A DNA stretch of 31,326 bases from a virus, in the IMG/VR virus record IMGVR_UViG_3300032331_002140, positions 1 through 31,326 of that record; one strand, given 5' to 3'. Each line of letters begins with the position of its first letter. Position 1 is the first letter of the stretch. This document shows positions 12,101 to 30,364 of the stretch, one piece after another. A program made the position numbers and the translations under genes. The notes beneath the pieces are model-generated. The model did no database searches, was not told the origin of the DNA, and saw only the letters and a program-made list of their open reading frames with translations.

Positions 12101-15100
12101 GTAAAAGTGTTACCTAGACGAACTACATTTAGCGAACGTGTTGGTATTTCGTTTGAGTTTTGATCCAGCAACAAGTTTTCAGTAGTTTCAGTTACAATAC
12201 CATCAACCACCGCACCAGGGCGTGTGACTGTTAATCCTCCGGCCAGAGGATTCAAGTTGATAATAGCATTTGTTCCCCAGCCTTGTTGGCTCCAGTACAA
12301 AAACTCGTTGACCATTCTTGACCAGTCTAGAGTATACCCATCGGCTCTGTCAGTAAATGTTAGTCCTTGATTTTCTAACAGTTTGCCATAACTTAACAAG
12401 AAGTCGCTTACCGCAGTTTCATTAACAAATACAAAGCCATATGGTACTTGAGTTACATTGGTTGAATAGAATGTTGGTACCCGTACAGTAATGCCGCCCG
12501 AACTGTATTCTTGTAGTTTGCCCACGGCTTGACTTTGTAATATTTCAAAGTACGGTTGTGAGGTTCCGTAGCCAAATACTGCATAACCGCCACCATCGAC
12601 TTTTTGTATTGCGACACTACTATATTTGATTTGATCAAATGGCTGATTTTTATACAATAAAATGTTGTAACTTTCATCGGGAATTGTCAACGTAGTGTTT
12701 GTGCTGTTGGGACTGGACTTTTCAGTAATCAACTTGATATATTGTTTGTCTGAGTAACTGGCCATGCGATAGCAAAGTCTAACATCCAGGGCCGCAAGAT
12801 CGGCAGTCAACAAGTCAGTTGAATTGATCCCAGTTTGTCTATTATAATCCACAATCCAGTTGATGTAACTGGCTTTGCTAGTACCATTACCATATACTTC
12901 AACACCGTTGGCATCTAATCTGTAGCGACCATTGTAAAGATATTGATTGTAGTCAGTATCAAATTTATACAAATCTCTATCGGCAAATAGTGCAAAGAAT
13001 TCTGCCGGGCGAGTGACCGCCAACACATGCATCACCGAAAATGGATACGCAGAACTATTCCACCAAGAGGCTTCAACCGGGCCACCGTCGCCAATGACCC
13101 AACTCTTTTGGTATCTAGTACTAATGTTTTGATTGAATGGTACTCCACCTACCACGCTGTCTTGCGGGCTCAATAATTCGCCTTCGCTGCCTGTGGGGAT
13201 TACAGAAGTTAAACCTGATCTTGCATACTTAGGTTTGTAATAAGGCGCAACAGGATCTGCCACAAGGCCAGCGGCTAAGTCGTCCCACAACACCAGGTTG
13301 TCTGCGGTATATGGTGCTGGACCATAACGATCCTCCCACCAGGTTGGTTCAACAGTGAGTCCCAACATTTCCCAAGGTGTATAACTGGGTTGTTGTGTGT
13401 CGTAAAAATATCGATAGATACCGCGCCAGGCACCTAACAAATTCTCATTGTTGAGTCGATTAGTAGTGCCACTATAATTCCACGTAAATTCATTAGTAGC
13501 ACTAAATGTTTGAGATTTATAATCTAACTTGTTCCAACCACAGTAACTTAATAAATCTGTGGCAAAAATTGTATTAATTTCTTCAAAGGTATAACCAGTG
13601 TCACGGAATTGACCAGGTAACACATTTTCAATTGTGAGAGGTACTGGATTGCCATCTTGTTTGATGTTGCTGTAAATTCTAGTTTCAAATTCCAATAAAA
13701 CCTGGTCACGAATATCTCCAAACACCGGAGTCTCACTGCCATCGTGTCCAATAATAAACTCGCCTGTGCCATTACTGGTCACAAGAGTGGTAATTTCAGG
13801 TTGCCAAGTAGGATACAATCCCATCTTGCTAGGAGTATTAGGCACAAAATTTCCATAAGTGGCAGCATATTCATTGATGGTAACTGTGTCGCCAATGGCA
13901 AGTGTAACCCCAATGGTGAGTCTTGGTCCATTGGTGGCCACAACATAATCTCGATCGCGAGTTAGAATAACATCATTTAGATATACACAAAGTCCAAGAT
14001 AGTTTGCTGAGGTGTAATTGTAAACTTGTACAGTATCGAATGTGTCACGAGTGGTTGGTCCCACCGTATAGGTATTACTATAAGAAGTAACTCCCTGGGG
14101 AATCATGTCGCTCCAATAGAACGGTTGGGTATCTAATTTTCCTAATGTAATATCTGCTATGGCTTGATCAAGAATAGTAGCCGTGGTTTTAAATGCAATA
14201 TTGTTTTGAGTCAACACAGCATCTAACATTTGTGCTTTGAATTTAATATACTCACGACCATTGTATTGTAATGACGCAAATATATTGTAACTAGGACTAC
14301 GCATGAAATAACCGGCTAGAGTCAGCGGGCTACTTTGTTGTAAAATTTCTAATCCATAAGGAATAATATTGCCAAGGTCACGACTGTTATTTGAACCGTT
14401 AATGGGTCCAGTCAAGTCTAATAAGTTTTCACAAATACTTTCATAATGAGTACGTATGGTACCTAAAGTAAATGCCGGACTATTTGCATTAAGCGGGTTG
14501 CTTTGCAGATTGTTCGGCACTTGATAAAATCCCACGCTACTGGTTTGGTCGCTGAGTGCCAACACTTCAATAACATCTGTGGGCAAGTAAGTATTGGTCA
14601 ACGTAATAATTGTGCTATCTGTTCCAACAGTATAGGTGTACATACTAGGTTCAATAAAAACGCTACCAACATAAATTTTTATCACAGGCACTGCAATTGA
14701 TGTTTGTGAGTTCACTGCAATGTCAAGTTTGAGTGGTTGTCCTGTGTAGGTAAATTTAAATTGTTGATAAATTTGTTGTTCAACCACAGCAGTTTGCCAG
14801 CCTATCAATTTATGATAGGTCACACGATCTTCATACTCTCTTGCGGCGCCTGAACTGATAGGAGTGGTGGTACTGACATTATCTATAGTATAGGTAAAGG
14901 TATCAACATACAAGTTGTTGTCAAACACAATATCGCCAACGTTGTTGATGTTTAGATACTGTAATGGAAATTGCAACACCGGATCAAGAATAGTAGTATC
15001 GCCCACGGCGTAACTGAATAACTTTGAGCCTGTGAAGTCGCTGGATTGGTATTTTACTCGGTTGCCAAAACTCACACCGTCTACATCGTATATGTTGAAT

Positions 15101-17319
15101 AACGGTGCTTGTTGAACTGCTGTTTTTTGCTGTGCTTGAGTCCAGGTGGTACCATCAAACCAAAATGTTTTTCCAGCATAGGTACTGCCATTCAAGCATA
15201 CTGTACACTCATCAAGTTGAACCGCGCCATCTATGGCTTCTGTCAACACAATAATTGGTTGTGCAATTAACGGTGGTACAGTATCTGGAATTGCAAAACT
15301 CACAACATAGATTTTATCGCGCACACTTAAATCTATATCTGCGGCAAATATAACTCGAGAGCCTTCAACCAATGTATATCCATCAGTAGTATAGCCGGTA
15401 GAACCTTCTACATTTGAAAGTGCATCAGTTTCAGTAAAGTCAATGATATCAACTGGTGCTTTGCCCTGAGTGCCCATGTTCCAAAGACGAATGTCGGGAC
15501 GGAACTGTATGATTGGTCGTTTGGCTCGAAAATTGTTGTCAAGATTTACATTGGTGTTGTTGTATTTGGCCGTGTCATTGAGTACGCTGATATGAAACCA
15601 ACGATTACTTCTGGACCATGCATTTAAATCTTGACTGGCACGACTAATTGTTAGATAATCCAATTCTGTTGGTTCTATAGAAATAGTGCTGTCGTTGTAA
15701 TCAGTTACATACGTTTCTGGTATAACAAAATTTTCAACAGGTAGCAACTCAATGGCTGTACCAACGCCACTCACATAATATTCGTGATTGCTAATGGCAA
15801 TTGAATTCATGGTGCCTGTACCTGATTGCAAAGTTACTGCTGGACCGTTGGGTACTGCACTTACTGTAAACTTGATACCGTTGGCCGCAATTGATCTCAC
15901 ATAGTAAGTTGTTCCGGCTTCTAGTCCGCCTAGAGTTGGGGTTAAAAATACAACCTCTTGTCCCACATACAAATGCACAGCATCGTAATAGGTGATATAG
16001 TTTGTGCCGGCCTCTGTGGCAGTACATTGAAAACTGCTGGTTCCTGATTTGTATCTAGCCGGGATTATATCGCCAGTGAATCTTACTTTAAGACCATTTG
16101 AAAATGTCACGCCATTGGGACTTGTATATGTTGGTTGACCAATAATAGTATCAACATCAAGTACGCTACTATTTCCTGGATCAATTAAAACAATACGTCC
16201 AAAAATTTCTGAGTTTGTTCCAGATTGGTAGTACAATGTATCTTGTACTGCGCTTAATAGTGGAATACTGCGAATAACTCCGGCTGGGTCTTTGTACCAT
16301 TGGGTATTGCTGTAAACTGTGCCGTAACTGGTAGTCCACTTTTCCAAACTATTGATAGTAGATAATTCTGATAATTGCAGATAAATTACATCACCAACTG
16401 TGACATAAATTATTTGATATTTTTGTGTGAGTGCAGGATTATTAATAAAAACCAATGTGCGATTATTCAAATTGGTTGTTCCATCAATTCCACCAGTTGC
16501 AACAATAAAATCAAGTAAAGGTTGCCCATTGATATCATCATAGGCCAATTCGGTCACTAGATCAATTGTACCAATACTGGTTAAAGTTTCATAATAAAAA
16601 CTTTGTGCTGTTTTAAGTGGTGCATTAAAAAATACTGTGCCAGACGTTTCTCCATTGTTGGTCACGCCATAAACATCTCTACTGCTGATGTTTGGAGTTG
16701 CTGGTATCTGCCCCGAAATACCAGGAGCAGACTGTATCCAAAATTCATCAGTGACTTGGAAAGTATAACTTCCGCCACGTACTAATTCAATTACAGGATT
16801 GTTACCAATAACTCCTGAAAAATTATAAGCATTACTGCTGGTTGTCACTACAAAATTATCAGTGGTAGCAATTCCAGTGGCCGCAACATCTACTACATCA
16901 GGGCCACCAGGCACCCAGTAATACTGGCTGAAATTTATAAATGTATCAAAATCAACAAACGGATCCCAAGTATAATACTCACTTGAATAAAGTCTGTCTG
17001 GACGGTTACTATTGCCGCCTTGAAAGCCCACGGCATCATTTAGACCTGGGTAGGTAATGGCATTTTTAATAGTGTTAGTATCAGGCACAAGACTGACCAC
17101 ACCCGGTTCTAATTGATATTCGGCTCGAGTTTTTGTAGGTTCAACCACATACTTGTCGTTGGGATTTATACCTGGTCCCACTGTGCGGCCAATGAAGCCT
17201 TGAGTTTTTCTAAAGTTGGGTTCCTGGATCAGTTGATCAAGTGTGGCGGCCAAAAATTGCTTGTTGGCATCAGTTTGAAAAATCTCAGGAAGAAAATCTA
17301 CGCTACGTGTGTTGGCCAT
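3121..17319 (-). CDS. Giant modular baseplate/tail structural protein (4732 aa)
   Basis: The true start is the ATG at 17317-17319 (MANTRSVDFLPEIFQT); the TTG one codon upstream is unlikely. The stop of gp6 overlaps it as TGATG, and GGAG sits about 7 bases upstream. Residues 1-75 and a segment near 1311-1372 (PWEMLGLTVEPTWWEDRYG) resemble conserved parts of very large structural proteins of T4-like aquatic phages. Further modules: CBM5/12-like units at 1816-1852, 3804-3845 and 4099-4136; an FG-GAP-type propeller at about 2238-3012; a conserved block near 3516-3653 (DYIQEVKPYHVSVREFNLKY); GSGY repeats near 3710-3760; a YTI..IGA..GTG module at 2458-2501 and 4173-4217; many beta-sandwich units of the type VxLNGxxL...DYTV; and a GERIMYRE domain near 4560-4604. 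Directly after gene 6, it occupies the place of T4 gene 7. I infer a peripheral baseplate protein with surface-binding arms. No enzymatic motif was recognised. Confidence 0.85.
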   Translation of the reverse strand: MANTRSVDFLPEIFQTDANKQFLAATLDQLIQEPNFRKTQGFIGRTVGPGINPNDKYVVEPTKTRAEYQLEPGVVSLVPDTNTIKNAITYPGLNDAVGFQGGNSNRPDRLYSSEYYTWDPFVDFDTFINFSQYYWVPGGPDVVDVAATGIATTDNFVVTTSSNAYNFSGVIGNNPVIELVRGGSYTFQVTDEFWIQSAPGISGQIPATPNISSRDVYGVTNNGETSGTVFFNAPLKTAQSFYYETLTSIGTIDLVTELAYDDINGQPLLDFIVATGGIDGTTNLNNRTLVFINNPALTQKYQIIYVTVGDVIYLQLSELSTINSLEKWTTSYGTVYSNTQWYKDPAGVIRSIPLLSAVQDTLYYQSGTNSEIFGRIVLIDPGNSSVLDVDTIIGQPTYTSPNGVTFSNGLKVRFTGDIIPARYKSGTSSFQCTATEAGTNYITYYDAVHLYVGQEVVFLTPTLGGLEAGTTYYVRSIAANGIKFTVSAVPNGPAVTLQSGTGTMNSIAISNHEYYVSGVGTAIELLPVENFVIPETYVTDYNDSTISIEPTELDYLTISRASQDLNAWSRSNRWFHISVLNDTAKYNNTNVNLDNNFRAKRPIIQFRPDIRLWNMGTQGKAPVDIIDFTETDALSNVEGSTGYTTDGYTLVEGSRVIFAADIDLSVRDKIYVVSFAIPDTVPPLIAQPIIVLTEAIDGAVQLDECTVCLNGSTYAGKTFWFDGTTWTQAQQKTAVQQAPLFNIYDVDGVSFGNRVKYQSSDFTGSKLFSYAVGDTTILDPVLQFPLQYLNINNVGDIVFDNNLYVDTFTYTIDNVSTTTPISSGAAREYEDRVTYHKLIGWQTAVVEQQIYQQFKFTYTGQPLKLDIAVNSQTSIAVPVIKIYVGSVFIEPSMYTYTVGTDSTIITLTNTYLPTDVIEVLALSDQTSSVGFYQVPNNLQSNPLNANSPAFTLGTIRTHYESICENLLDLTGPINGSNNSRDLGNIIPYGLEILQQSSPLTLAGYFMRSPSYNIFASLQYNGREYIKFKAQMLDAVLTQNNIAFKTTATILDQAIADITLGKLDTQPFYWSDMIPQGVTSYSNTYTVGPTTRDTFDTVQVYNYTSANYLGLCVYLNDVILTRDRDYVVATNGPRLTIGVTLAIGDTVTINEYAATYGNFVPNTPSKMGLYPTWQPEITTLVTSNGTGEFIIGHDGSETPVFGDIRDQVLLEFETRIYSNIKQDGNPVPLTIENVLPGQFRDTGYTFEEINTIFATDLLSYCGWNKLDYKSQTFSATNEFTWNYSGTTNRLNNENLLGAWRGIYRYFYDTQQPSYTPWEMLGLTVEPTWWEDRYGPAPYTADNLVLWDDLAAGLVADPVAPYYKPKYARSGLTSVIPTGSEGELLSPQDSVVGGVPFNQNISTRYQKSWVIGDGGPVEASWWNSSAYPFSVMHVLAVTRPAEFFALFADRDLYKFDTDYNQYLYNGRYRLDANGVEVYGNGTSKASYINWIVDYNRQTGINSTDLLTADLAALDVRLCYRMASYSDKQYIKLITEKSSPNSTNTTLTIPDESYNILLYKNQPFDQIKYSSVAIQKVDGGGYAVFGYGTSQPYFEILQSQAVGKLQEYSSGGITVRVPTFYSTNVTQVPYGFVFVNETAVSDFLLSYGKLLENQGLTFTDRADGYTLDWSRMVNEFLYWSQQGWGTNAIINLNPLAGGLTVTRPGAVVDGIVTETTENLLLDQNSNEIPTRSLNVVRLGNTFTIEPLTTQTISYVNLRFTNFEHMIVLNNKSVFGDLIYNPVTGARQNRLTLVAVTTSDWNGSVDTPGFILNQDNVQEWTGLKTYPKGEIVKYKNVYWQALTIVQPSAKFDFNTWTQSNYSQIELGLLPNLANKADQLANSYNINTANIETDNDLLSYGLIGFKPRQYLAALNLDDVSQVNVYRQFLGTKGTILAAELFKAANLGKEAADYSIYENWAVQRAVYGANANRSFFELRLNRALLSSNPSLVQVVVPQQTSEADQTIFLTDVWRSSYNLTSTEILPTTTELPTDAGLPSAGYVSLDDTDITVFDITNTASLAANIDKIEVGTSIWVAKINDYDWGIYRAQAVPGQIQHVCDNLNGTSRVIFNDHHNLVVGDKLIIKFFDTEINGVYQVLSVPALDTVNIAFAFTSNRSVANGTGIGFTLQTMRVSQASDVDTLPYALNILPGAKVWVDDNGAGLWEVLQKNNVFSSIIALNPVLLDAGEQYGASVTQARNKIAALVGSPRYGFSSGTAKGAVYVYVKSYSDQYTPVSPLGTGDAILTLDGTGVRGYGNAVDFGNQTWAVAGASASLGPNSEPDNGYVCVIYRDPVLGVPGSIPYGQWQLLTQPGTTTSTTPGAGEFGYSVAMSLDERWMYIGAPGLNSVHAYGYVDWQEQIIRTTANGSTQSFNINNTIQINNKYQLKVTLNGQVQTVDVDYTVNSDFSTVNLTNNPGVATAGSFISGQTYTILSVGTTDFVAIGASSNTVGVEFIATGVGSGTGTALASTLIEFARYNSFQIPYTATTYNLNNDINADGRRVGLFTATNIYSFSIKVNEVLLRPNIDYTFAGTTITFTGSYIVSDIIVVSAKGYFEYVDTIDSSMVTGGLTAGDRFGHSVSCTTDGRQVLIGTPDRTIDGEVEAGTVYIFDRNVQKFIYGTDPSSVSFTVLGGTPPAPVSVIVNNQFYINQTNGVINETDSFTISGDTVTILGDLQIGDIVEIETNQFQQVQQVDQHVIAEFSNFGQAVDICANNCSLYVGEPQSSQQIFKGGVVERFVNQSRIYGIITATVANPSLTAGNTIRINNQDVEVPVAATLTSLASAINTTVPNILATVSTTGYLTISVKNSAASAPFNKVQVAPGTVGTTFTDLGFETFAWTQTIISPYPVQYAAFGSAISINDSAVNLVVGAPQGTIYLETVFDDGTTIFDAGSTTFFSVVVQSGAIYTFDYLPSSSLTITNPGKFVFGQQVNNSQIGPYDTFGAAVNYTSGVLMIGAPKNDSGDSDANFGAVFVFENPSDSPAWSVVQIQQPTVDIRLLNSVFLYDRITSARTEFLDFINPLQGKILGASRANIDYIGAVDPAAYNTGPTNITGTTWFADHVGEIWWDISTVRFINPNQDSIVYASRRWAQLFPGSEVDVYQWVQSTTPPASYAGEGIPLNTASYTINTNLSQDGTFATYYYFWVRGITVTATQLGKTLPASTVASYIADPKASGIPYMAPINASTIALYNSADYISASDTVISIEYDREYTNDNVHVEYELIPQDRADGFLSDGLYRKLQDSFCGVDTFGNKVPDPNLGPAERYGVQFRPRQSMFVDRFAALKNYLKRVNAVLAQYPISESRSFTLLNSNEPIPSQTEIVNGVTVTNWNLQVANLEILGFQTPFWSNPSGSIPLGYKYLVTTDSSQRGLWTIYTVVESDTAPGTRVLKLTRVQGYNTPDYWSYINWYLPGYNSSTKVVAEVSTYSALSTLTVTVGSSVKVTANAQGKFEIYLKTVLGWDRVALQDGTIEFSVELWDYAVGRFGFDVEVFDAQYFDQEPVIETRKIIQAINEELLIDDLAIQRNKALVLMFNFVLSEFSAPEWLVKTSLIDVDHRIRQLIPYQNYVVDNQEFVSDYIQEVKPYHVSVREFNLKYNGFDEFFGDLTDFDLPAYYNTSLDVPEFTSPILLPYDHGTAFNSTTNEQSDLPATSPVWSAWPYNQWYSNYLLVLDSVEIIDGGSEYTEPPVVIITGDALTPAEATAVISSLGRVVAVNVTNSGSGYSQTPTITFDGGNGVAARAYARMTNDLVRSFRTVIKYDRFQYFSDILTWRPSGTYLSGMLVRYENRVWIATPADSSGAPIVGPTFNLEDWTLVPARTLTGVDRTMGYYVPGVNQPGLELPLLIDGVGYPGVQVYGDYFLNNPLAVDTNYSSEFTDVTLGTLPTDINVEGGQFIGLYEGHAPEELVNGAEFDTLDFRVYTRPGADWNRDGHGFQWSSVRYTYDPTLETAYSWAGITEHPVQVLVSNITTGGDLALGTNYTIDWVNQTVTLIMTPPAVNLADQFQINVFELGGGSQLYRANYIGSELGETVVVPVGSTEITSIAVFVNGTNVDSVTWTPYVDSTNWNILNTYNKLDIVNNGGSYYRALQDVPVGVSIANVLYWFEFVPTAQSLVDFGTDYGATDGIAMVVFGTCTIDAGNFVIGKSYTITAVGSTNWTSIGAASNTLGITFTATGIGSGTGQASTVYSWSTPQVQYQVADSDLVTNRIIYLTNSVQGTNPANLVVTRNGLRLQPPEGIEWIGDDSSVSFGLPQRGGYSQSTIYAPTDITVWIDNILQTQSVGPTTGNYSVTAWTGSNTPGRQVVFTTPPTSGARILIAVSTAAGYRVIANQLQISSAVVLDDLFAVTTWNDTAQLWPLTLVFNGPVTDSVTVSEGYDETNYSYPDTANNAPGSFDYSAGTTIYVNDFYLERSINSASRLWVTLNGYRLFEGVNYTVSGDYLILASGVIGISDVLVVEAFTNSVVPEAMAFRIFQDMRGVQATYRITEATTTTLAQDLSSTANIAYVTNAQALSDPDLAAGIFGIVTIDGERIMYRERDTVANTILGLMRGTAGTGAADHSAGADVYDMGRGNLLPTQFQDYIVSDSSMGDASTTIFYAPSIEFADFADSTVETDSIEVYVGGIRQYIVSDTTADSTYRWFITDFDPLAVEFDIAPAAGSEVTILVRQGVTWYAPGDGTASNGVALQDTETQAARFLRGT
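4669..4803 (-). repeat. 45-residue YTI-IGA-GTG module, copy 2 in giant protein
   Basis: Encodes residues 4173-4217 of the giant protein: NFVIGKSYTITAVGSTNW, then SIGAASNTLGITFTATG and GSGTGQAS. It aligns without gaps to copy 1 (9817-9948) at YTI, VGxT, IGAxSNTxG, F.ATG.GSGTG. It appears inserted between a beta-sandwich region and a following strand-rich segment. I know this motif as a recurring module in phage structural proteins; its function is unknown to me. Confidence 0.8.
9817..9948 (-). repeat. 44-residue YTI-IGA-GTG module, copy 1 in giant protein
   Basis: Encodes residues 2458-2501: SFISGQTYTILSVGTTDF, then AIGASSNTVGVEFIATG and GSGTGTA. It sits inside the propeller region, between blade 2 and blade 3. 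Nucleotide similarity to copy 2 is partial, so the duplication is old or the copies were acquired separately. Confidence 0.8.
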
Positions 17320-20300
17320 CAAACTACTCCGCTACCTGGTGCGGTACGCAAGTTGGTACTGGTCAATGCTTCAATCACTTCAATGTTGTTGATTGTTGCA
17401 CCATTTACAAATATTTCGTTTGGTGCTGAACGGATCTCATACAAGTCGCCAAAATACTTTTGACTGTTTAGTGGCACTAGCACCACTGAACTAATAATTG
17501 TTCCGAGTTCTCTATGCAAATAAGCCGCAAGTTCTGAGAAGTAGAATGTATCTCCAAAGTTCCATTTGTCAATTGAAAAGTATGTGTTCATTGAAGCAAC
17601 CACACTACTCTTGATTTCGCTGGTGCTGGCTGTGGATCCTTGCGCACGAATCACTTTGATCGTGGCACGTAATTCTTGAGAGGCCTTTTGACCGAACAAG
17701 GGTTTGAATACAACTGAATTCAAAATAATGTTGTCGCTGATCATTTTGTAATTTTGTAAACCTTGGTACTCCGTTGATAATTGGTCAATGGTCGGTACTT
17801 CAGGTTCGGGAACAGTTCCTGTGGTATCGCGAATCCAGTTTTGATAAGCAGTATAATAACTCAATGTCACAACGTATAGGTCAATGATGTTGGTTGTACC
17901 TGGATCGATACGTGTGGTAAGTGGAGCGTTGTGGCGATATTGATAATACAACGCCTGGCGACCGGTACGTGCAATCCATTCGTTAGTGACATCTATCAAT
18001 GTTCTTGCTCCTGTAACACTAATAGACAATTGGTAGAATGCTAGATCAGTATAAGCATAGAAAACTTGTCCTGGTGTCCAGGCAGTTTTTTGCAATTCAA
18101 TTTCATCGTATGTGCCGTAATCACTTACAACTATGTTAGGCTCTACTAACAGATATCGTTGTAGGTTATCAAAGTCCACTGTTTTTTGCAGGTAAACATA
18201 TTTTTGTGTAGGGTTGACATTGGGTGCTACAATTTCATTGAAGAAATCTGGATTGTCAGGCACGCCGTCATTGTCGCTATCACGATAACCCACTAGAACC
18301 TGGAAGTCATCAACATATCCATCACTTTCAACTGGTTGTCCAGTAATAGTCATTGTAATATCACCGGGCAAATGATCTGTTGAATCAGGACGGGTATTAA
18401 CTGCCAGCACATTAATAAAATCTTTGATCACTGTGCCTGTGCGGCTGTCATAAATCTGACCATTGGAATAATAGAAAAAGCGTGTTTGTAGTACTGATCC
18501 AAAGTAATATGCTAGGCCACGGAAGGTGGTTGTGTAATTTTGATTTTGCACAACAAATTGTATCAGCCAAGATGCATCTAGATTTGTGCCTGATGTGTTG
18601 CCAGCATAAGTTTGACTCCAGGTAGAATCTTGTGCTAGATTGGTGCTGGTAATTAGATACCATGAATATGGGGTACCAGTAATATCACCATTGTTATCGT
18701 ATCCCAGGCCAAAATTACGATTCAACAAAATTTGTTCGGTAATACTTTGTTCTACAGATACAGGTAAGTCAGTAACAAATAATGGAATAATTGTGTCAAC
18801 TAATGCGCCTGTGGGTATAAAATTATTAAGTGCAACCGGACCTGCTCCTGAAGGTAGATTACCAAGGCCGTTGTTGTATCCTGAGCCTACAATGCTAATG
18901 GGACTTGCCCAAATTTCCAGTTTCTGATCTGCTGAAGTTGGCGTGCCTTGTTGTAGTTTATTGTTACGATCAAAATAGTAACCCACAGGAGGTACAAATT
19001 TAATTAAACTGCCCACTGCCACATACTTGAACGCTGTGGTTGTAGTTGACCCTACTGGGATTGGAGATCCAGTTGGCCAGGTGGTTGAATAAATTGCATT
19101 TTTAAAATAGCCAGTGGTCTCGTTGGCTAGTGTGGTACTTTGAGTCCAACTTGCTCCTGTTACCCATGTAGTAGCACCATATGTGGGTAATGTGGTGGCA
19201 GTGACTCTGGGAAAGTTTTCGTAATAAAACTGTCGCATGGTAGTTTGTGCAATAGCCGGTTGAACTTGATTGCCAACAAAATCAGCGATTTCATTACGGT
19301 TGGTCCACGAAAGCAAAATAGTGGGAAGAATATTTTGTTCCCACAAGCCACCATCGCTGCCAAAAGTGTTTGTGCTAGAATATTTGCCTGTATTGTCAAC
19401 TAAGTCAAGATAACGACTTGTACCAATGCTGGCACGATTCAGTGCCTTGCTTTTCACAATTGAATTGTACTGTGTGTATGGAAAGAGATTATAGTCTTCG
19501 CCATTGACCATGCGATCTTGTGTGTAGTAACGTGCAGGGGCACGTTGCTTGATAGCATCTATTGTTTCACGTGCCTGACTGTTGCTGACAGGTTGAGTAA
19601 TGCCGCAAGTGAATGTAAGCGTTTCAAGATTGCCTGCACGACTGATATAACTGATTGGAATAGTTACCGCCTGCATCTCTGCAGGATTAATAATGTATTG
19701 CAAACCATTTGATGCGCGAACATACGCACGGAATGTACCCACTGGAATTTCTGAAAACACCCCATCACCAAACACCATGGTAATTTGATCATTTGTTCTT
19801 GAAGTAACAGTATAGATGGGGCGCAGGTCTGTAGCCACTTGTTCTGCGCCAGCGGAATAAATGTTTTCAGTATATGCCCATTCGCGATTGATATTACCCA
19901 CATTGTCTAGTTGGAACAACCAACGGTCTTCGTTGTTGATCCCTTCAATGTTGATGTTGACTGTGCGATTACTAACTTTTTCACTCAAGTTAAAGTCTTG
20001 ATTTTGTAGTACGCCTTGCTTGAACATAAAGAAATAGCCAGTATTGGCTGACTGGAAGCCTAAACTGTCGTTACGAAATAGAACATTAAATGGTACATTG
20101 GCTTGAGGAGGAGGCTCATACAAATAAGTTTTGCCTGCTGATGTAGATGTCATGGCTTCAAATGGCATGCTTACCCCATCCACTGTGGCTGTGTACGGCA
20201 CCACCGGCAAGTACCCTGGCACTAGATTCATGCCATACTCACTGGTAACTACGCCTAGTATGGTTTGTTTATTGCCGGGACGACCAATTTTTTGGGTGTC

Positions 20301-22862: not shown

Positions 22863-24383
22863 TTATTTTGCCTGTATTTCTATGCCAGGAGGTACTGGCT
22901 CTGCACCTGGTGGTGGGCTAGGTTTGCCTTCTTCAAATGCAATTTCAACATCCACACCTTTGTTATGATACGGATAAGGTTCATGTGTGGGCGCACGACT
23001 TACTATGCTTTCAAGTGCCCCAGGATCAACAACCCAGCCCTTGCTTGTGTCCCATTTTGTATCATCTAGCAATGTTGTTGTCAATGGTTGCGGGTTGGTT
23101 ACTGTGCCGGCCGCTGGCCCGTTGAGATCAATACCTCCTGCTTGTAAGGCCAATGCAGATCCTGCACCCCACGAACCTGATGCGCTGTTTAGCGTAAGTG
23201 TGCCATCTGCTTTGACACCAATTGTGTTTTTACTATACAAAGTAATATCTTCTTGTGCTTGAATACTCAAAAATGTATCAGTTTCTAACTGCATGTCTTG
23301 TTTGCTTTTTACTTTAAAATATCGCCCAGCAAACATATTGATGTCACGGTCTGCATGAAAATTAATATCACCTTTGGTGCGCACGTTTACACTGTTTGTG
23401 GCATACACATCTACTGTGCCTTCTACTCCAAACTCTAACCAAGTTTGGCCATTAGCATGAATAATATAGAAAAAGTTTCCAGTGTCGCTCATGGTAATTT
23501 GATGACCGCTACTGGTACGTAATCTAAGCAGAGCATTGTTACCTTCAAGATCTCCGTCATCCATCACAAGACTGTGCCCACCGACTCGTCCAATTACTTT
23601 TGCATCGCCAGATTTGAGGGCGCCTTCATTTAATTTGTTTCTAATGTCATTGGGCTTCATGCCGCCTGAGTATATAGGGATACCAGGTGTACTAACACCA
23701 AATACTGCGCTTGGACTTTCACGTTGGCTGCTAGAGTTAATTGTGCCACGTTCGTTGTCAGTAATTAATCCTTGTTGAAGCAACGCTTGCGCCACAACAC
23801 TTTGTACAGGTTTTATACCATCAAAGAATCGTGGACTGTTGAAAAGATCTATATTATTGGTATTAATTTCTGTGACAGGTAACTGAGTTGCGTCAGCAAA
23901 ATATGTCTCTTGGTTTTTATTTTGTACTTTTGCTTGTGACTTGATCACTGAGCCCAGGGCCGGAACCATGCGACCTAGTCCTTGATCAGGTATAGTACCA
24001 ATGTAATAGCCTTGGCTGCGGTCGCCATTGACAAAAACACACATTACAGTAACTCCCACATCTGGTGGTGTGAACCACATGCCGTAACTGTTCTGGTTTC
24101 CGGGATAAGATCCAATGTTCTTTGAGTTGGCTGTGCCTTGCAGTGGGGTTGATCCATAGAAAGAAGGCATATAACTTACCGTGGTCCATGTGGCTTCGTC
24201 TTGCATGTTTTGATCAGTCCCTGCCGCAAATGCATCAATGTATACTCGCAGGCGGCCGGCACGTGTGGGGTCTACCGTGCTCATAACTATGCCAGCAAAT
24301 GGACCAAACTCTGCGGGCACTCCGCCGCGGTCTAATTTGTAATTACTGGAACGCCCTTTACTGCGTTGTACACTTTCTGCCAT
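22863..24383 (-). CDS. 5: gp5-like baseplate hub spike (OB-fold plus beta-helix)
   Basis: 506 aa. Residues about 25-135 form a gp5/VgrG-type OB-fold (FAGIVMSTVDPTRAGRLRVY, WFTPPDVGVTVMCVFVNGD, QGYYIGTIPDQ). A linker with RESPSAVFGVSTPG (221-234) follows. Residues about 262-425 are a strand-repeat region (GHSLVMDDGD, LRTSSGHQITMSD, INFHADRDINMFAG, QEDITLYSKNTIGVKADGTL), characteristic of the trimeric beta-helix spike. The tail has APTHEPYPYHNKGVDV (464-479), a motif I associate with hub proteins of this phage group. T4 gp5 (575 aa) carries a lysozyme domain between OB-fold and helix; here the 125-residue linker is too short for it and shows no lysozyme motif. GGAGGT just before the ATG lies inside the last codons of the 1027-aa gene. 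Role: central spike of the baseplate hub. Confidence 0.88.
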   Translation of the reverse strand: MAESVQRSKGRSSNYKLDRGGVPAEFGPFAGIVMSTVDPTRAGRLRVYIDAFAAGTDQNMQDEATWTTVSYMPSFYGSTPLQGTANSKNIGSYPGNQNSYGMWFTPPDVGVTVMCVFVNGDRSQGYYIGTIPDQGLGRMVPALGSVIKSQAKVQNKNQETYFADATQLPVTEINTNNIDLFNSPRFFDGIKPVQSVVAQALLQQGLITDNERGTINSSSQRESPSAVFGVSTPGIPIYSGGMKPNDIRNKLNEGALKSGDAKVIGRVGGHSLVMDDGDLEGNNALLRLRTSSGHQITMSDTGNFFYIIHANGQTWLEFGVEGTVDVYATNSVNVRTKGDINFHADRDINMFAGRYFKVKSKQDMQLETDTFLSIQAQEDITLYSKNTIGVKADGTLTLNSASGSWGAGSALALQAGGIDLNGPAAGTVTNPQPLTTTLLDDTKWDTSKGWVVDPGALESIVSRAPTHEPYPYHNKGVDVEIAFEEGKPSPPPGAEPVPPGIEIQAK

Positions 24384-24386
24384 GTA

Positions 24387-27300
24387 TTAACCTCCGTCTG
24401 TAGCAATATCTTGATTGCTGGGATTTGTTGAACTAGTTGGATTGTCTCCTCCAGGCGGTATGCCTTCTTCTAGTTGTGCTGTTTGCGTTTGTGTTAATCC
24501 AGTCTGCCCTGCACCTACTCCGGGTAATCTAGGTGGTCCAGCATTAATATTTGCTGTGACAGTAACAGGATTGCCGGCTCCGTCTGTAGCAGGTGTGGGT
24601 GGACTGGCTGTTCTTATGTTGATGCCTTCATTCTGTGGCAATATATCGGCATTGACTCCGGCATTGCTGGACGAAAGTCGAGTGGTAGGTTGTTGCCCAG
24701 ATGCTTGTTGTGCGCCTAGTATGCCTGCAGACGAGGCATTTTGTCGATTGAGTCTTGCTGTTTCGGCGTCAGTTTGATTGGCATCAGTTTGATTTCCTAG
24801 CCTTGATGTGATAGACGACCCGCTGCCTGGCGCTCTCTGTGCCGCGGCCAATTGTGCCTGAGTTAGTTTGCCTTGAGTGCCAACCGTGCGTCCTTGGTCT
24901 AGTGCATCGCTAGTCACAGCACCAGCACCAGCATTCACAGTGTTTTGTTTGTTGGGCAACGGGAATTGATACAATGTGCCTTCAACGGTTTGATAAAATG
25001 CACCTTGTCTAAATTCACTAATAATTTTAACAGCCTGATATACTCGGCTTTGTATAGGTTCTCTTGCTTTGTTAGCACGGCCACTATAGCCGCCACCATA
25101 GGGGTCTGCCACACCGGTGTTGAGATCATAATCTTCAGGACGTTGCCACACTATTTCAAACAACACATCACCTGTTTCGAAACTGATACTGCCATCTTCG
25201 CCAAACCCTGTGATGTCTGCCACCTGACTTTCACCTACTTTGATTTCTTTGAACAAACTGCCTTGTTGTATCCAATCAGGGTCACCAAGAATTTTTACTT
25301 TTGCATTGGCTAGGTCGCCGGGACTGAACAAATAATCAGCCGCATTGGCAGCGGTTTCGTTGAGTCTAGTGTCTGCTGATCCTTGTGTGCTTTGTCCGCT
25401 GGTTACTGCATAGTTGTATTTGGCAATGTCTCGCAGGCTTGACGTTGCGGCTTCGCGTATTTTTGCTGCCGCACTATTTTTAGGATCGCTACCACTCACA
25501 GTGATGCTATACAATGCATTCATGGTTTCTTGATATTCTACTACCGCAGTATTTTTTCCTGTAAACCAGTAAGGATAACTCTTGTGTACTCCGGCAAATC
25601 TACTGGGTGGAAAATACTTGCTGTTGAAGTTTTGCAATCTATAAGGTTTGATAGTGTATGTGATATCAAATGCATGATCATTACGCTTGGGATCAATTCC
25701 CCCGGGGCGAGGTACTGCATTCATAATGATGTTAAACCAGGTCATGGGAGAATTACGTTTATCAGGATTGGGAATCTGATATCCGTCGCTGTCTTGTCTT
25801 ACAAGTGCTTGGCCCAGGATATAACTACTGTTACGAATAGCAAGTTCAATGGCTTGTGTTATCATTTGTCCAGCGGTGATACTGAAACTACGAGACATAT
25901 TGTCTCGTGATTGCTTCAACGGATCTGGAACCTCGTCGTTCTTGCCAGCGGCAGCTTGTTTATTATCTTTTTTGGTATTTGGTAAAGTAATCTCAGCATT
26001 CTCAATTGCCGATGCTGGTATTACCTTGCCATCGTAGCCTATACCATCAACAAATTTAATAAAATATCTATCAGCAATGCTGAATACTGGTTCGCTTTGT
26101 CCCTTTTGTGGCACAGTTAATTCTTCTTGAAACTTAGTAAGTGCGCCCATTAAGCCTTGTGTGATAGACTTTTTAGAAGTTGGTGCGGCAATTGCTTTTG
26201 GTGGTGGGCGATTGGCAGCCGCAATTTGTTCAGCATCGCTTATATACCCTACAGAACTGTTTGTAGTTGAGGTAGTTGATTTACCAGGCGTAGCGGCGGC
26301 AGTATCAGTCCCTGTATATACTACATCACCACCCAGTAATTTCCCCACCGTGGTACTGGTAATCTGCATGTCGTGCGGAATAGACCCACGTGCTGTATAA
26401 CCAGCAATCAACTGCCCTTGCGGCACACAATCCCACTCATAGGTGACCATTTTGCTGCCAATGCTCCAGTTAATTGCGGCCAACTTGAATGGTATAAATT
26501 TTTCTATTGCGGCACCGCCACTGGCATGAACTTGCACAGGATTGCCATCAGCACCCTGGCCATAAAATCGTATCACTGCTAGATAGTCCGCCGCAGTATA
26601 GTTAACTTTGCCACTGCCATCTTTTTGTTGCAGATTGGCCACGGCTGAGTACAAGTTGTCAATTAGTGTGATACCGTTGGGTTCATTCACAACCAGTTTC
26701 ATTGTGGCTGTCATGTGACTGGCGCCAGTTGCCTTGCCTAGTGGACTAGTGTCCAGAGTCAATGAGTCGATGTAATAATCGTATGGGAAGAATGGATTGC
26801 GCCCACTATCACCCGCAGAGATGTCGGCGGTTCCCATTCCTTGTTTTTCGCCGCCACGGTTGACAGGTGCTCCGCCATCTTGAAACAATAGAAAATAACC
26901 ATCAATTTTTTTAGTTTTACTACGCAATAATCTTTCGTATTGTGTTGAACTCAACAAGTACACTGATATAGAATATGTATAACTAGCAAATTGATCTAGT
27001 GGATTAGGGCGCGGTTGAATCTTTAATGCGTTGCTTGCGGCGTTGGTATTGGCCTGCACAGTTGCGGTACTATTATTTTTAGCATCGTCTGGTGGCGCCG
27101 CGACCCCTGGTTCAGTTTTTAACTCAACACCCCCGGGCAAACCACTGGCATCATACAACTGACCTGTTTCGGGGTTTATCCTAGATTGAGATAGTGTGCC
27201 ATCTTCGGCTCTGACATTGATACCTTGGTCATATCCGTTGGTGGCCTGTGTTTGTTCTGTGGTTCTTGTTGGGGCGTCGGTTCCGGTAGTGCCACCAGTG

Positions 27301-27470
27301 TCTGACGTAGTAGGCGTTTCTGCATTAGACGGAGCAGTTGTGTCAGGCAGTGGTACTATCCGTCCATTAGTGCCAATTTTTGCTGGCGCTGGCGCATTAG
27401 GTCCCGTTGATGCATCGTCTTGTGCTGCCTGACTGGCTGTGGTTGGTGGTTGTGGTTGGATGTCCGCCAT
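24387..27470 (-). CDS. Baseplate hub candidate (gp27-like) with long disordered ends
   Basis: 1027 aa. Residues 1-150 and about 850-1027 are low-complexity, rich in Thr, Ala, Pro, Asn and Gln. The folded middle starts near 155 (DQFASYTYSISVYLLSSTQY), continues with NPFFPYDYYIDSLTLDTSPL and FKLAAINWSIGSKMVTYEWD, then a part with SYPYWFTGKNTAVVEYQETM and VKILGDPDWIQQGSLF, and ends near ISFETGDVLFEIVWQRPEDY and AVKIISEFRQGAFYQTVEGT. This order and its position directly before the gp5-like spike fit the T4 gp27 hub ring that carries gp5; sequence similarity to T4 gp27 itself is not evident to me. The repeat motif GIN[VI]R occurs in both tails, and the N-terminal tail shares an INxETGQxY module with the 863-aa protein. 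Role as hub is inference from context and pattern. Confidence 0.65.
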   Translation of the reverse strand: MADIQPQPPTTASQAAQDDASTGPNAPAPAKIGTNGRIVPLPDTTAPSNAETPTTSDTGGTTGTDAPTRTTEQTQATNGYDQGINVRAEDGTLSQSRINPETGQLYDASGLPGGVELKTEPGVAAPPDDAKNNSTATVQANTNAASNALKIQPRPNPLDQFASYTYSISVYLLSSTQYERLLRSKTKKIDGYFLLFQDGGAPVNRGGEKQGMGTADISAGDSGRNPFFPYDYYIDSLTLDTSPLGKATGASHMTATMKLVVNEPNGITLIDNLYSAVANLQQKDGSGKVNYTAADYLAVIRFYGQGADGNPVQVHASGGAAIEKFIPFKLAAINWSIGSKMVTYEWDCVPQGQLIAGYTARGSIPHDMQITSTTVGKLLGGDVVYTGTDTAAATPGKSTTSTTNSSVGYISDAEQIAAANRPPPKAIAAPTSKKSITQGLMGALTKFQEELTVPQKGQSEPVFSIADRYFIKFVDGIGYDGKVIPASAIENAEITLPNTKKDNKQAAAGKNDEVPDPLKQSRDNMSRSFSITAGQMITQAIELAIRNSSYILGQALVRQDSDGYQIPNPDKRNSPMTWFNIIMNAVPRPGGIDPKRNDHAFDITYTIKPYRLQNFNSKYFPPSRFAGVHKSYPYWFTGKNTAVVEYQETMNALYSITVSGSDPKNSAAAKIREAATSSLRDIAKYNYAVTSGQSTQGSADTRLNETAANAADYLFSPGDLANAKVKILGDPDWIQQGSLFKEIKVGESQVADITGFGEDGSISFETGDVLFEIVWQRPEDYDLNTGVADPYGGGYSGRANKAREPIQSRVYQAVKIISEFRQGAFYQTVEGTLYQFPLPNKQNTVNAGAGAVTSDALDQGRTVGTQGKLTQAQLAAAQRAPGSGSSITSRLGNQTDANQTDAETARLNRQNASSAGILGAQQASGQQPTTRLSSSNAGVNADILPQNEGINIRTASPPTPATDGAGNPVTVTANINAGPPRLPGVGAGQTGLTQTQTAQLEEGIPPGGDNPTSSTNPSNQDIATDGG

Positions 27471-27473
27471 GGG

Positions 27474-27773
27474 TTAGAACCCCAGGGCTGACTTCAGCGT
27501 TGTGATTTTTGGCAAGTAGATCAAAGTGCCCGGTTTAAAATCCATAGGCGGTGCTTGCAAAGTATTAGGATTGCGTTGATAAAATACCCACCATAGACCT
27601 GCAATACCGTATAAATCAAATGCCAACAAGTCTGGACGATACTGATAGGTGGTGTTGATAGTGAATGTTAGGTCATCACTTTCTTTAGGTATGGGACGAT
27701 TGACCATGGTGTCAAGAAAAAATTGACTGTAGGTAGTCTCAAAATATGGGCTGGTTGAATCGTATTGTGCCAT
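27474..27773 (-). CDS. 53: gp53-like baseplate wedge protein (LysM-type)
   Basis: 99 aa, against 196 in T4 gp53. The C-terminal half, LAFDLYGIAGLWWVFYQRN followed by DFKPGTLIYLPK, has the LysM-like pattern seen in gp53 and in LysM baseplate proteins of other contractile systems. The N-terminal part (FLDTMVNRPIPKESDD, TINTTYQYRPDLLA) matches short gp53-type wedge proteins of T4-like aquatic phages. In T4, gp53 clamps the gp6-gp25-hub junction. A strong AAAGGAGG site at 27783-27790 lies within the end of the preceding gene, and the start overlaps that gene's stop by one base (TAATG). Consistent with baseplate neighbours on both sides. Confidence 0.78.
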   Translation of the reverse strand: MAQYDSTSPYFETTYSQFFLDTMVNRPIPKESDDLTFTINTTYQYRPDLLAFDLYGIAGLWWVFYQRNPNTLQAPPMDFKPGTLIYLPKITTLKSALGF

Positions 27774-30364
27774 TACCAGAATCCTCCTTTGAGCAGGTCG
27801 CCGTTAGCAAAGCCTTTGAGACTGAACTGTTGACTAACTTGACTGCGTGATTGTATGGGTATTAATGTGACGTCTATTTCCATTTTGGTTGGTACATAAC
27901 TAGCAGGTACGTTGTTTGTGACACTACCTACCACTGTGTTTGGTGCCGGAGTTCTTGGCAGCCCACCTTTTGGTAATCCACCTGGTATGGCATTTAACAA
28001 TCTATTCAATCCGGCCAAGGCCCCACCGGCTGGCAAACTGGTTCCCGATGGATTGTATCGATTGTTTAAATTCAAACCAAAGTTGTTGGGGTTGGTTGTT
28101 CTTATGTAGTCCACATCGTTGGGCAAGGTGTAATTAAACGAACTTATGACCACTGGATGGTCTGAGAATTGGTATCCTCCGTAGCCGTTTAACAAACATA
28201 TTGGGGGAGGAGTGCCCCGCTCTGCATCTTGTCCGTAGAACATTTTGGTTGCACTTCTAAAGAAATGTATTACTGCCAATAGATAATTGGCTTCTGTAGT
28301 ATCTTGTGCGGTAAATGTGCCACGCAGTTGGATGTCACCCACACGTGAGTTTTTATAAAATAGACCACGATAGTTTGAGTGTATCAAATCATACTGTTCG
28401 TAGTTGGCACTGTATGTTGTGGTGATTGTTGGTGTGTAAGGAAATATCACACCGTCTGTTCCACCATTGGCTTTGAGTGGTGCCAGTACACCAGCCGGTG
28501 TGGCATTGTACAAATATTGTGCTCCTGGTCCAAGACTCAATCTCACACGCCAGTCTGAGTTGCCCGGTTGCTTGTAACGTGCCTGAACTGTGGCTTGTTT
28601 TTTGGCCTGTGCTATAATTGCGGCTTGTTGACTGCCTTCAAATTGACTACCTGTGCTGGCAATAAATTCATTGTCAGCGGAGACTGCGTTGTTGGCTCCT
28701 TGACCTATGCCTTGATCTTCATCGGGGTTTAATGCATAAGGCTCTTCTTGTGGTGGGCCATCGGGTTCGGCTCCGGGTGGTAATTCTAAACCGCCGTCAG
28801 CCGGATCGACATCCGGTGGCTGTTCGACAAAATTTTCTGTTGCCAGTTGATCTCTTTGGTCTTGCTGGTATGCTTCTTGCACTGCAAGTTCTTCATCAGT
28901 TAGTGGGTCAACATCTAAATTGGTATCAGCCGGGTCTTCGTTTGCTAGTTGTGCTTCAAATCTTGCTTGTTCAAAAGGATCTGTGTTAGGGTCGACATTA
29001 GCAGGATCAAACACACTTTCAGCGCCAGCGTTGATTGTTTGACCAGGGTCGAATACACTTTCGGCGGCACCGGCCGCAGGATCTGTCAGCGCACTGACTT
29101 GTGTTGGTGTTTGTCCATCGCCATCGTTGCCTCCGCCTGCCGCATATACGTTGGCATTCTGTTCAATAACGTTTTCTTGTATTGCTATATTTTCTGTGGC
29201 AACTTGAATGTATTCTTGTTGTGCTTGATTGTTGGCCAGCAACTCTGCTCGTCTAGCATCTGATATGTTAGGATCGGCTAGTTCAGCATCGTTCCTAGCA
29301 ACAATTTGTTCGGCGTTAGCAATACCAACTGTATTTTCAGCAATACGACCTGCACCAATATCAATTTGTCGTAGAGCCTCGTTATTTGATCCTGGATACA
29401 ATTTGGCAGCATCAGCGGCTGTTTGTTGATCTAATACCAGGCGTTGGTCAGCCGTTAGAGTTCCTGTGCCGTTGTAAAAAGCATCTGCTTGATCGGCATT
29501 CAATGTGGTTGTGTCAATTCCTTTGGCAGTGAGTGCTGATACTGTGGTATTTTCTCCAGCGGGTATTCCATCAAACGTGGCTGCGGTTTCTGTACCGGTT
29601 AGTGTAGTAGCAGAATCAGTTGTAGCAGGTCCTACTCCAGCATAGTATGGCTGGCCAGTTTCTTCGTTGATTTTAAATCCAGACTGTAAATTACCATTGT
29701 CATCGTAGGCAGGAAACTGACTTGGATCACTTGTTGGATTTACTGGTGTATCTGTTGTGCCGGGTGTGGTGGTTGCAACCAAGGCAGCAACTCCTGAGCC
29801 AGTGATTGCGGCTGTGGCTGATGCGGTGGGTTTGCTGCCAAACAAGCCTCCCACAGTGGCAGAAAAATTAGTAAACAGTGAACTTAGTCCTGCGCCACCG
29901 CCAGTACCGCCACCTAGTACGCCACTGAATAAACCTTTGATGGTTCCCAGTGCGCCATCTATGCTGGGCAAGTTTGTGGTAAGGTTACCAAACCCAAAGC
30001 CACTAGTAACATTGAGTGTGGATCCCGGCAATTGTGGTATGCCCAGTCTGGCACGAATGTAAGGGTCAGTAGGATCTGCTCCGCCGAGATCTTGCAATTG
30101 TGTTGGTGTTAGTCCAGCGAGAGGATCGTTAAGTTGGGCGGCTGTAGTAACCGCAGGATTAGGAAGTGCGGCATTAGGATTAAAAATATGTTCTTCGGGA
30201 TCTTGTCTTGGATCAAACACAGATTCGGTGGCAGCAGATTGGTACTGTACAGTCTTTGTGTCTGTTGTTGTATTAGGTACGGTGTTAGTCGTAGGAGGAT
30301 TAGGTGGGTTCGCTACCACTGTAGTTGTGCCACCGTTACTACCTGATCCTGTTGGGTCTGCCAT
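27773..30364 (-). CDS. Tail-tube-cap/baseplate protein (gp48/gp54-like core) with long disordered arm
   Basis: 863 aa. The C-terminal 280 residues (from about 580) form the folded core: SDWRVRLSLGPGAQYLYNA, GVIFPYTPTITTTYSANYEQ, LRGTFTAQDTTEANYLLAVI, FFRSATKMFYGQD and TLPNDVDYIRT. I associate this pattern with the tube-cap or tube-initiator proteins (gp48/gp54) of T4-like cyanophages; which of the two cannot be decided. T4 gp48 and gp54 have about 360 and 320 residues. The first 570 residues are extra: low-complexity, rich in Asp, Pro, Thr, Asn and Gln, with a Gly-rich patch near 150-180 and the motif ESVFDP three times (47, 435, 449). TAGGAACA (30370-30377) serves as ribosome-binding site. 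First gene of the leftward late block, divergent from gp55. Confidence 0.72.
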   Translation of the reverse strand: MADPTGSGSNGGTTTVVANPPNPPTTNTVPNTTTDTKTVQYQSAATESVFDPRQDPEEHIFNPNAALPNPAVTTAAQLNDPLAGLTPTQLQDLGGADPTDPYIRARLGIPQLPGSTLNVTSGFGFGNLTTNLPSIDGALGTIKGLFSGVLGGGTGGGAGLSSLFTNFSATVGGLFGSKPTASATAAITGSGVAALVATTTPGTTDTPVNPTSDPSQFPAYDDNGNLQSGFKINEETGQPYYAGVGPATTDSATTLTGTETAATFDGIPAGENTTVSALTAKGIDTTTLNADQADAFYNGTGTLTADQRLVLDQQTAADAAKLYPGSNNEALRQIDIGAGRIAENTVGIANAEQIVARNDAELADPNISDARRAELLANNQAQQEYIQVATENIAIQENVIEQNANVYAAGGGNDGDGQTPTQVSALTDPAAGAAESVFDPGQTINAGAESVFDPANVDPNTDPFEQARFEAQLANEDPADTNLDVDPLTDEELAVQEAYQQDQRDQLATENFVEQPPDVDPADGGLELPPGAEPDGPPQEEPYALNPDEDQGIGQGANNAVSADNEFIASTGSQFEGSQQAAIIAQAKKQATVQARYKQPGNSDWRVRLSLGPGAQYLYNATPAGVLAPLKANGGTDGVIFPYTPTITTTYSANYEQYDLIHSNYRGLFYKNSRVGDIQLRGTFTAQDTTEANYLLAVIHFFRSATKMFYGQDAERGTPPPICLLNGYGGYQFSDHPVVISSFNYTLPNDVDYIRTTNPNNFGLNLNNRYNPSGTSLPAGGALAGLNRLLNAIPGGLPKGGLPRTPAPNTVVGSVTNNVPASYVPTKMEIDVTLIPIQSRSQVSQQFSLKGFANGDLLKGGFW

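Follow-up and report, generated by a model that had tools for sequence, protein, structure and literature searches.

Two adjacent baseplate ring proteins of a giant phage, a predicted tube initiator of 863 aa and a predicted hub of 1027 aa, carry long arms in which small modules recur, are shared between the two genes, and, for one module, are held under strong selection on their amino acids. Both genes belong to a baseplate cassette on the minus strand of a 31,326-base virus record, the whole of which was analyzed and is called the window here (Table 1). In phage structural proteins, disordered arms are generally regarded as spacers. Here, such arms hold repeated mini-modules with strongly conserved amino acids, and neighboring ring proteins share modules more within a genome than across genomes. 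The reading that we favor, at a shade under an even chance, is that these beads are putative multivalent docking elements, copied between the two genes, held by selection, and directed at the same partner for both rings. Judged by sequence comparison, the modular, word-sharing arms appear to be what is new, whereas each core protein falls within a known class as an ordinary member. The shared modules offer a testable handle on how giant-phage baseplate hubs hold together, and they exemplify the exchange of modules by two genes that serve a single machine.

Table 1. Cassette genes, protein parts, and arm modules, with coordinates in the window (folds and parts assigned from AlphaFold2 models are predictions)
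Feature	Residues	Window position	Strand	Basis
863-aa protein, arm plus tube-initiator core		27773..30364	-	PHROG 12050
863-aa protein, parts	arm ~1-600; core 604-863, T4 gp48/gp54-like			
Module A, PTSDPSQFPAYDDNGNLQSGFKINEETGQPYYAG	210-243 of 863-aa protein	29636..29737	-	Sequence; AlphaFold2
Predicted alpha-helical hairpin bead, 863 arm	329-408 of 863-aa protein	29141..29380	-	AlphaFold2
ESVFDP copy 1	47-52 of 863-aa protein	30209..30226	-	Sequence
ESVFDP copy 2	435-440 of 863-aa protein	29045..29062	-	Sequence
ESVFDP copy 3	449-454 of 863-aa protein	29003..29020	-	Sequence
gp53-like wedge protein of the baseplate, 99 aa, separating the 863-aa and 1027-aa genes		27474..27773	-	PHROG 7145, E 6.9e-22
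1027-aa protein, N arm plus hub core plus C arm		24387..27470	-	PHROG 11190
1027-aa protein, parts	N arm ~1-150; hub core ~155-840, T4 gp27/VgrG-like; C arm 841-1027			
Module B, QGINVRAEDGTLSQSRINPETGQLYDASGLPGG	82-114 of 1027-aa protein	27129..27227	-	Sequence; AlphaFold2
gp5-like spike/lysozyme-family protein, 506 aa, adjoining the hub gene		22863..24383	-	PHROG 13211, E 1.4e-39

AlphaFold2 models of the two proteins, built with 65 and 67 sequences, place both cores in known fold classes. The modeled core of the 863-aa protein resembled 8kea_P (Foldseek E 8.7e-5), 6j0n_b (VIA-align Z 10.7, 153 aligned residues, 3.6 Å), and T4 5iv5_BE (VIA-align Z 9.2, 143 aligned residues, 3.7 Å), and as predicted it has the tube-initiator fold of the T4 gp48/gp54 class. 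The gene context expected of a tube initiator was also present, with gp53, hub, gp5, gp25, and gp6 genes nearby and synteny with phage RaK2. The core of the 1027-aa protein, compared by Foldseek and VIA-align, matched T4 gp27 (1k28_D; Z 11.9, 239 aligned residues, 4.0 Å) and as predicted has the gp27/VgrG hub fold. No PDB sequence matched the hub in a profile search that extended to E 0.1, and whole-protein alignments of both proteins found no convincing relative among PDB sequences. By their predicted folds, the two proteins are adjacent baseplate rings, tube initiator and hub. The folded parts had been thought unrelated, which is correct at the level of sequence, but as neighboring rings both fall in the tube/hub group. 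The 863-aa protein has its predicted core fold in common with T4 gp48/gp54 and the tube initiators of contractile injection systems (8kea, 6j0n, and 5iv5), as well as a gene position beside gp53-like, hub, and gp5-like genes, but adds a modular arm of ~600 residues. Similarly, the 1027-aa protein has the predicted core fold of the T4 gp27, Mu gp44, and VgrG hubs but adds large insertions and module-bearing N and C arms. If the rings have T4-like six-fold and three-fold symmetry, module copies would be multiplied.

Among annotated phages, the closest are of the jumbo type (RaK2, PBECO4, and Atu_ph07, for example). Their relation to the window is confined to the last ~260 residues of the 863-aa protein, and the 1027-aa protein had no tblastn match in the phage collection. 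The cassette of RaK2 (Alcyoneusvirus) has the same order, gp55, then tube initiator, gp53-like, hub, and gp5, with a hub homologue of 777 aa. However, the RaK2 tube initiator is a 243-aa, essentially armless protein that starts about where the 863-aa core starts, and neither module A nor module B had a match below E 1 in the phage collection. The long arms are therefore dispensable in a relative. Searches of annotated phage genomes, with the sensitivity of tblastn, turned up no modular, word-sharing arms, and such arms belong to giant phages known from environmental DNA only. Relatives were collected in two scans of viral contigs that gave 59 and 80 loci (numbered with the prefix L), and their six-frame ORF set held 7,042 ORFs, 5,199 of them distinct.

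The cassette also encodes gp25-like and gp6-like proteins and a 540-aa protein that matched no family; one open frame of 4733 aa (window 3121-17322) adjoins the gp6-like gene. Among relatives, an 85-residue domain is common to the 4733-aa and gp6-like families, and a domain of the 540-aa family recurs in the C-terminal part of gp5-like (506-type) proteins in L050, L119, and L131 (blastp E down to 2.8e-55). The hub gene is represented by two adjoining ORFs, an N half and a C half, in L126, L138, L112, L087, L090, L132, and L137, as either a split gene or a frameshift.

The preliminary description had paired one peptide from each arm, and this motif pair is real, with both peptides encoded on the minus strand. 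EDGTLSQSRINPETGQLYDA occupies residues 89 to 108 of the 1027-aa protein (window 27147-27206), as first described, and DNGNLQSGFKINEETGQPYY occupies residues 222 to 241 of the 863-aa protein (window 29642-29701) rather than about 220 to 239. Their shared core is D/E-x-G-x-L, a few residues with one gap, and I-N-x-E-T-G-Q-x-Y; the core and single gap of the original consensus stand, but its serine does not keep one fixed spacing.

Each peptide lies within a larger unit. Module A spans 34 residues, most commonly in the form DPSQFPAYDDDGNLQPGFAINEETGQPYYxG, and has a single copy in the window. Relatives have one to nine copies per arm, with adjacent copies commonly 44 to 46 residues apart. In distant 863-family proteins, a broader form (YDDDGNLxPGxxLDENxNPVxVG) stands directly before the helix and core. 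An iterated A profile gave 53 matches with i-E under 5e-3. These were confined to 863-family ORFs apart from one in an unassigned ORF (L038) and an A-like module near the N terminus (residues 15 to 47) of a 540-family protein, L036:4282-5130, the latter a weaker case because L036 joined the profile during iteration. Module B has the form xGINxRAEDGTLSNLRxNPETGELYDxxGxPGG in 1027-family arms and occurs once near the C terminus (L048, residues 936 to 964, i-E 4.1e-7). Across 30 larger records, strong A matches were found in 10, in frames of 863-family size, and strong B matches in 11, in frames of 1027-family size; beyond these were two weak partial A matches elsewhere (E about 0.002) and one weak B match, at the position of module A in L119. 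In the window, the 1027-aa protein's C arm has EGINIR at residue 948 (window 24612-24629) and a predicted strand at residues 952 to 954, resembling the start of module B.

The shared motif had been described as a linear module in disordered arms. The arms fit this description, but AlphaFold2 predicts both modules as small ordered, hairpin-like islands. Module A has predicted strands at residues 230 to 232 and 239 to 241, with pLDDT of 81 to 82 in the blocks covering residues 221 to 240 and 36 to 39 in the flanks. Module B has predicted strands at residues 84 to 87, 93 to 98, and 105 to 107, with block pLDDT of 62 to 70 and flanks of 34 to 40, a fold of moderate prediction confidence. From the DSSP strings, we infer hairpin pairing in both. 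The alpha-helical hairpin of the 863 arm was predicted at pLDDT 89 to 98 over residues 331 to 400 and 84 at residues 401 to 410. The sequence led us to suspect a possible helical-hairpin module common to both arms; coiled coils match one another by composition.

Exact words are also shared between the arms of the two families. Comparing 93 863-family arms with 195 1027-family arms yielded 86 common 7-mers, versus 11 for reversed arms and a mean of 15.4 for local shuffles, and 49 common 8-mers, versus 1 and 1.1, respectively. Removing near-duplicates from 118 loci with both arms left 82 genomes, in which the shared words form 14 clusters of overlapping words (0 to 2 in ten shuffles and 0 in reversed arms). 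Examples include GQTDEFGGVDEAVA, TGFGDDDTSVFP, STGLNVLPED, AETARLxRQN, LELPPGAEPDE, NPETGE, NPMSQDP, and PRVEVNGVG, among others. A genome's own two arms had an exact word of at least 7 residues in common in 7 of 82 genomes, compared to 63 of 6,642 cross-genome pairs, and none of 2,000 permuted pairings was as high. Same-genome sharing recurred in a replication set of 47 new genomes that have little in common with the first set, taken from 123 new loci with both arms (5/47 versus 10/2,162 cross-genome pairs; 0/2,000 permuted pairings as high). These counts include L125/L136 and L261/L262, which look like close relatives and not independent cases, an L018 word, PTAAQQA(A), that is probably low complexity, and L352, which came from a scan with a query (L121) picked for holding such a word. 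No exact 7-residue word was common to the two arms in 75 of 82 and 42 of 47 genomes.

Control comparisons at k = 7 with the 506-, 540-, 1158-, 99-, 125-, and 4733-aa families gave 0, except for 1 of 62 between 1027 arms and the 540 family. The 1027 core scored in 3 of 82 genomes, all due to an insertion carrying ESVFDP, and three larger records had no excess of shared 6-mers among 457 ORFs outside the cassette. ESVFDP, present three times in the window's 863 arm, was found in 10 distinct 863-family proteins and in 4 distinct 1027-family proteins, where it lies within an insertion around residues 278 to 306, and was absent from all other ORFs and all reversed proteins of the set.

Codon comparisons indicate strong purifying selection on module A copies. 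Four proteins have six or nine A copies, enough for a pooled estimate, and in these dN/dS within one protein was 0.04 (L015, nine copies) or 0.07 (L070, L071, and L018, six copies each), at dS of 1.1 to 1.5. Single pairs gave 0.06 (L065) and 0.23 (L076), with L068 saturated; module A gave 0.06 between proteins, and module B gave 0.16 between orthologues. Evidence for copying came from L331, where a 90-base stretch common to both genes is identical at 84 bases and includes 17 residues with no codon change, by its DNA a clear recent copying event between the two genes. The earlier suggestion that the motif was either copied between arms or selected in both thus has support for each half, from the L331 copy and from the module A dN/dS values. 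Selection is also supported by several other words shared within a genome, which are identical as protein and differ in most codons, at 6 of 9 in L117, 5 of 9 in L118, and up to 11 of 15 in L352. Shared words differ in age, from 0 of 17 codon differences to 11 of 15. Between the window's modules A and B, 4 of the 7 codons for the matched residues (I, N, E, T, G, Q, and Y) differ.

Copying might also occur if the arms are spacers: the two genes are close together and both arms could tolerate insertions, so in-frame stretches could be copied between them by recombination or slippage and be shared without function. The L331 copy is what such an exchange would leave, and the shared words of L125, L136, and L199, almost identical in DNA, fit recent copying without selection. 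Within the cassette, these are the genes with long disordered arms, and most genomes share no word. We nevertheless consider functionless exchange unlikely, given the dN/dS of 0.04 to 0.07 at dS above 1 in module A and the words of L117, L118, and L352, which keep the same protein while most codons differ and, in L117, sit in unrelated flanks.

Whether modules A and B are related to each other is a separate matter. Within the window alone, the A/B match is not above chance, as the gapped arm-to-arm score was reached by 193 of 2,000 shuffles, the best ungapped arm match was a different, T-rich stretch, and direct comparison of the A and B profiles gave P = 0.013 and a probability of 3.3%. Once related phages were included, profile searches put the match above chance. 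A B profile was built from the 1027-type arms of other phages, with the window left out, and used to search the 5,199 distinct ORFs. Its first matches outside its own family were L117, L130, and L119, all 863-family arms. The L117 match, GLPIRNEEGQVVQGIRMNPETGETY, scored 18.7 bits (i-E 2.7e-4), a score reached by 0 of 200 column-shuffled decoys (maximum, 7.8). With L117 and L130 added to the profile, module A copies came next (L119, L068, L065, the window, L071, and L070), at individual E-values from 0.015 to about 1, and 0 of 200 decoys were as good at ranks 1, 3, and 5. The reverse search from A was weaker (9 of 200 decoys as good), and a broad A profile against the 1027 family was matched by 35 of 200 decoys, with top matches not at module B. 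Based on these searches, a common origin or common structure of A and B is probable, short of proof.

The concern that the motif is merely a frequent word of low complexity does not hold for the strict pattern, whose 14 occurrences among 7,042 ORFs are all in the 863 and 1027 families. The word R-I-N-P-E-T-G-E-x-Y is also found in adenylate kinase (LSGRRINPETGEVY, E 0.055), at a site that we take to be the LID, and part of the word is therefore a generic hairpin turn. Convergence, in which unrelated modules came to look alike since N-x-E-T-G-x closes beta-hairpins well, would account for this occurrence and for the hairpin that is module A's best PDB match (1e0n, E 0.79), and it agrees with the low A-to-B profile probability and the decoys in the search from A. 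It is an improbable explanation, as the copies in L117 and L130 stand directly upstream of the helix and core, the usual A position in 863-family proteins, yet agree with the B profile across 25 residues, GLPIR ahead of the turn among them, with no decoy as good. Convergence also leaves the other shared words unexplained.

In the docking reading that we favor, two neighboring rings would sit at the end of the tail tube, one made by the gp27-like hub and the other by the gp48/gp54-like tube initiator, and the long Ala/Thr/Pro/Gly-rich arms of each would work as strings of beads, namely, predicted beta-hairpins (A and B), the helical hairpin, and short words, with disordered spacers between. In-frame stretches would at times be copied from the arm of one gene into that of the other, with retained copies staying under strong amino-acid selection. 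The beads might dock both rings on the same partner surface, in hub assembly or in the virion, a surface that perhaps belongs to a wedge protein, the spike, or the end of the tape measure. If both rings hold the same partner, each phage lineage would maintain a matching set of its own across both arms. The stronger version, that hub and tube initiator carry a private, co-varying docking vocabulary, renewed by copying and held by selection, and that a single partner clamps both rings, is more doubtful, at roughly one chance in three.

A putative common binding partner for A and B, as first suggested, is plausible, and its direct prediction, co-occurrence of the two modules, is weakly borne out. 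Both were found in 9 of 82 genomes (21 with A and 22 with B; Fisher p 0.054, uncorrected for kinship), and 4 of the 30 larger records had both (10 with A and 11 with strong B), about the chance expectation. This weak co-occurrence, the armless RaK2 homologue, the many genomes without a shared word, the shared words of L331, L125, L136, and L199 that are almost identical in DNA, and the moderate prediction confidence of module B count against docking.

During T4 injection, the hub and tube tip get to the cell envelope. Arms placed outside the tail tip, with modules on both rings binding the same envelope or periplasmic component during injection, would suit that route and the high variability of arms between phages with conserved cores, but this too is improbable, because the T4 counterparts of both rings are inside the baseplate, as described in PMC3004832, and Pfam and PDB searches gave no annotated ligand similar to the modules.

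Searches of Pfam, PDB sequences, and INPHARED with the modules found no convincing relative: Pfam gave no match above cut-off and no annotated ligand, and the PDB gave generic hairpins and weak matches only. A WW domain, which we take the 1e0n hairpin to be, was rejected for module A, as the best match, at E 0.79 over 14 positions, is not significant. A CSDE1 cold-shock domain (PF23456) was likewise rejected, having reached 25.6 bits, versus a cut-off of 27, over the whole nine-repeat L015 protein, with no single stretch passing. Pfam matches at E up to 5 included no choline-binding or cell-wall-binding repeat, which the module repeats may resemble. NPATGK is reportedly the subject of hairpin design work. 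Searches of the open literature, PMC10253068, PMC9700779, and PMC3004832 included, found nothing on words shared by a hub and a tube initiator.

Like short linear motifs (SLiMs), the arm words are short, lie in disordered regions, have moved between proteins, and are conserved against a variable background. The disordered setting (flank pLDDT 34 to 40), the conservation seen in dN/dS, and the unrelated flanks in L117 all match that description. The other shared words are 7 to 21 residues long. Module A differs from SLiMs in being about 34 residues long and predicted to be ordered (pLDDT 81 to 82). In composition, the arms of both families have 0.0% Cys and 0.0% His (rounded), 0.1 to 0.2% Trp, and 1.8% Lys. 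The gp5-like protein ends with a stretch that contains PPGAEP (residue 491; also in 12 relatives), a word present in the 863 arm as well (residue 529), making the gp5-like protein a possible third member of the shared set.
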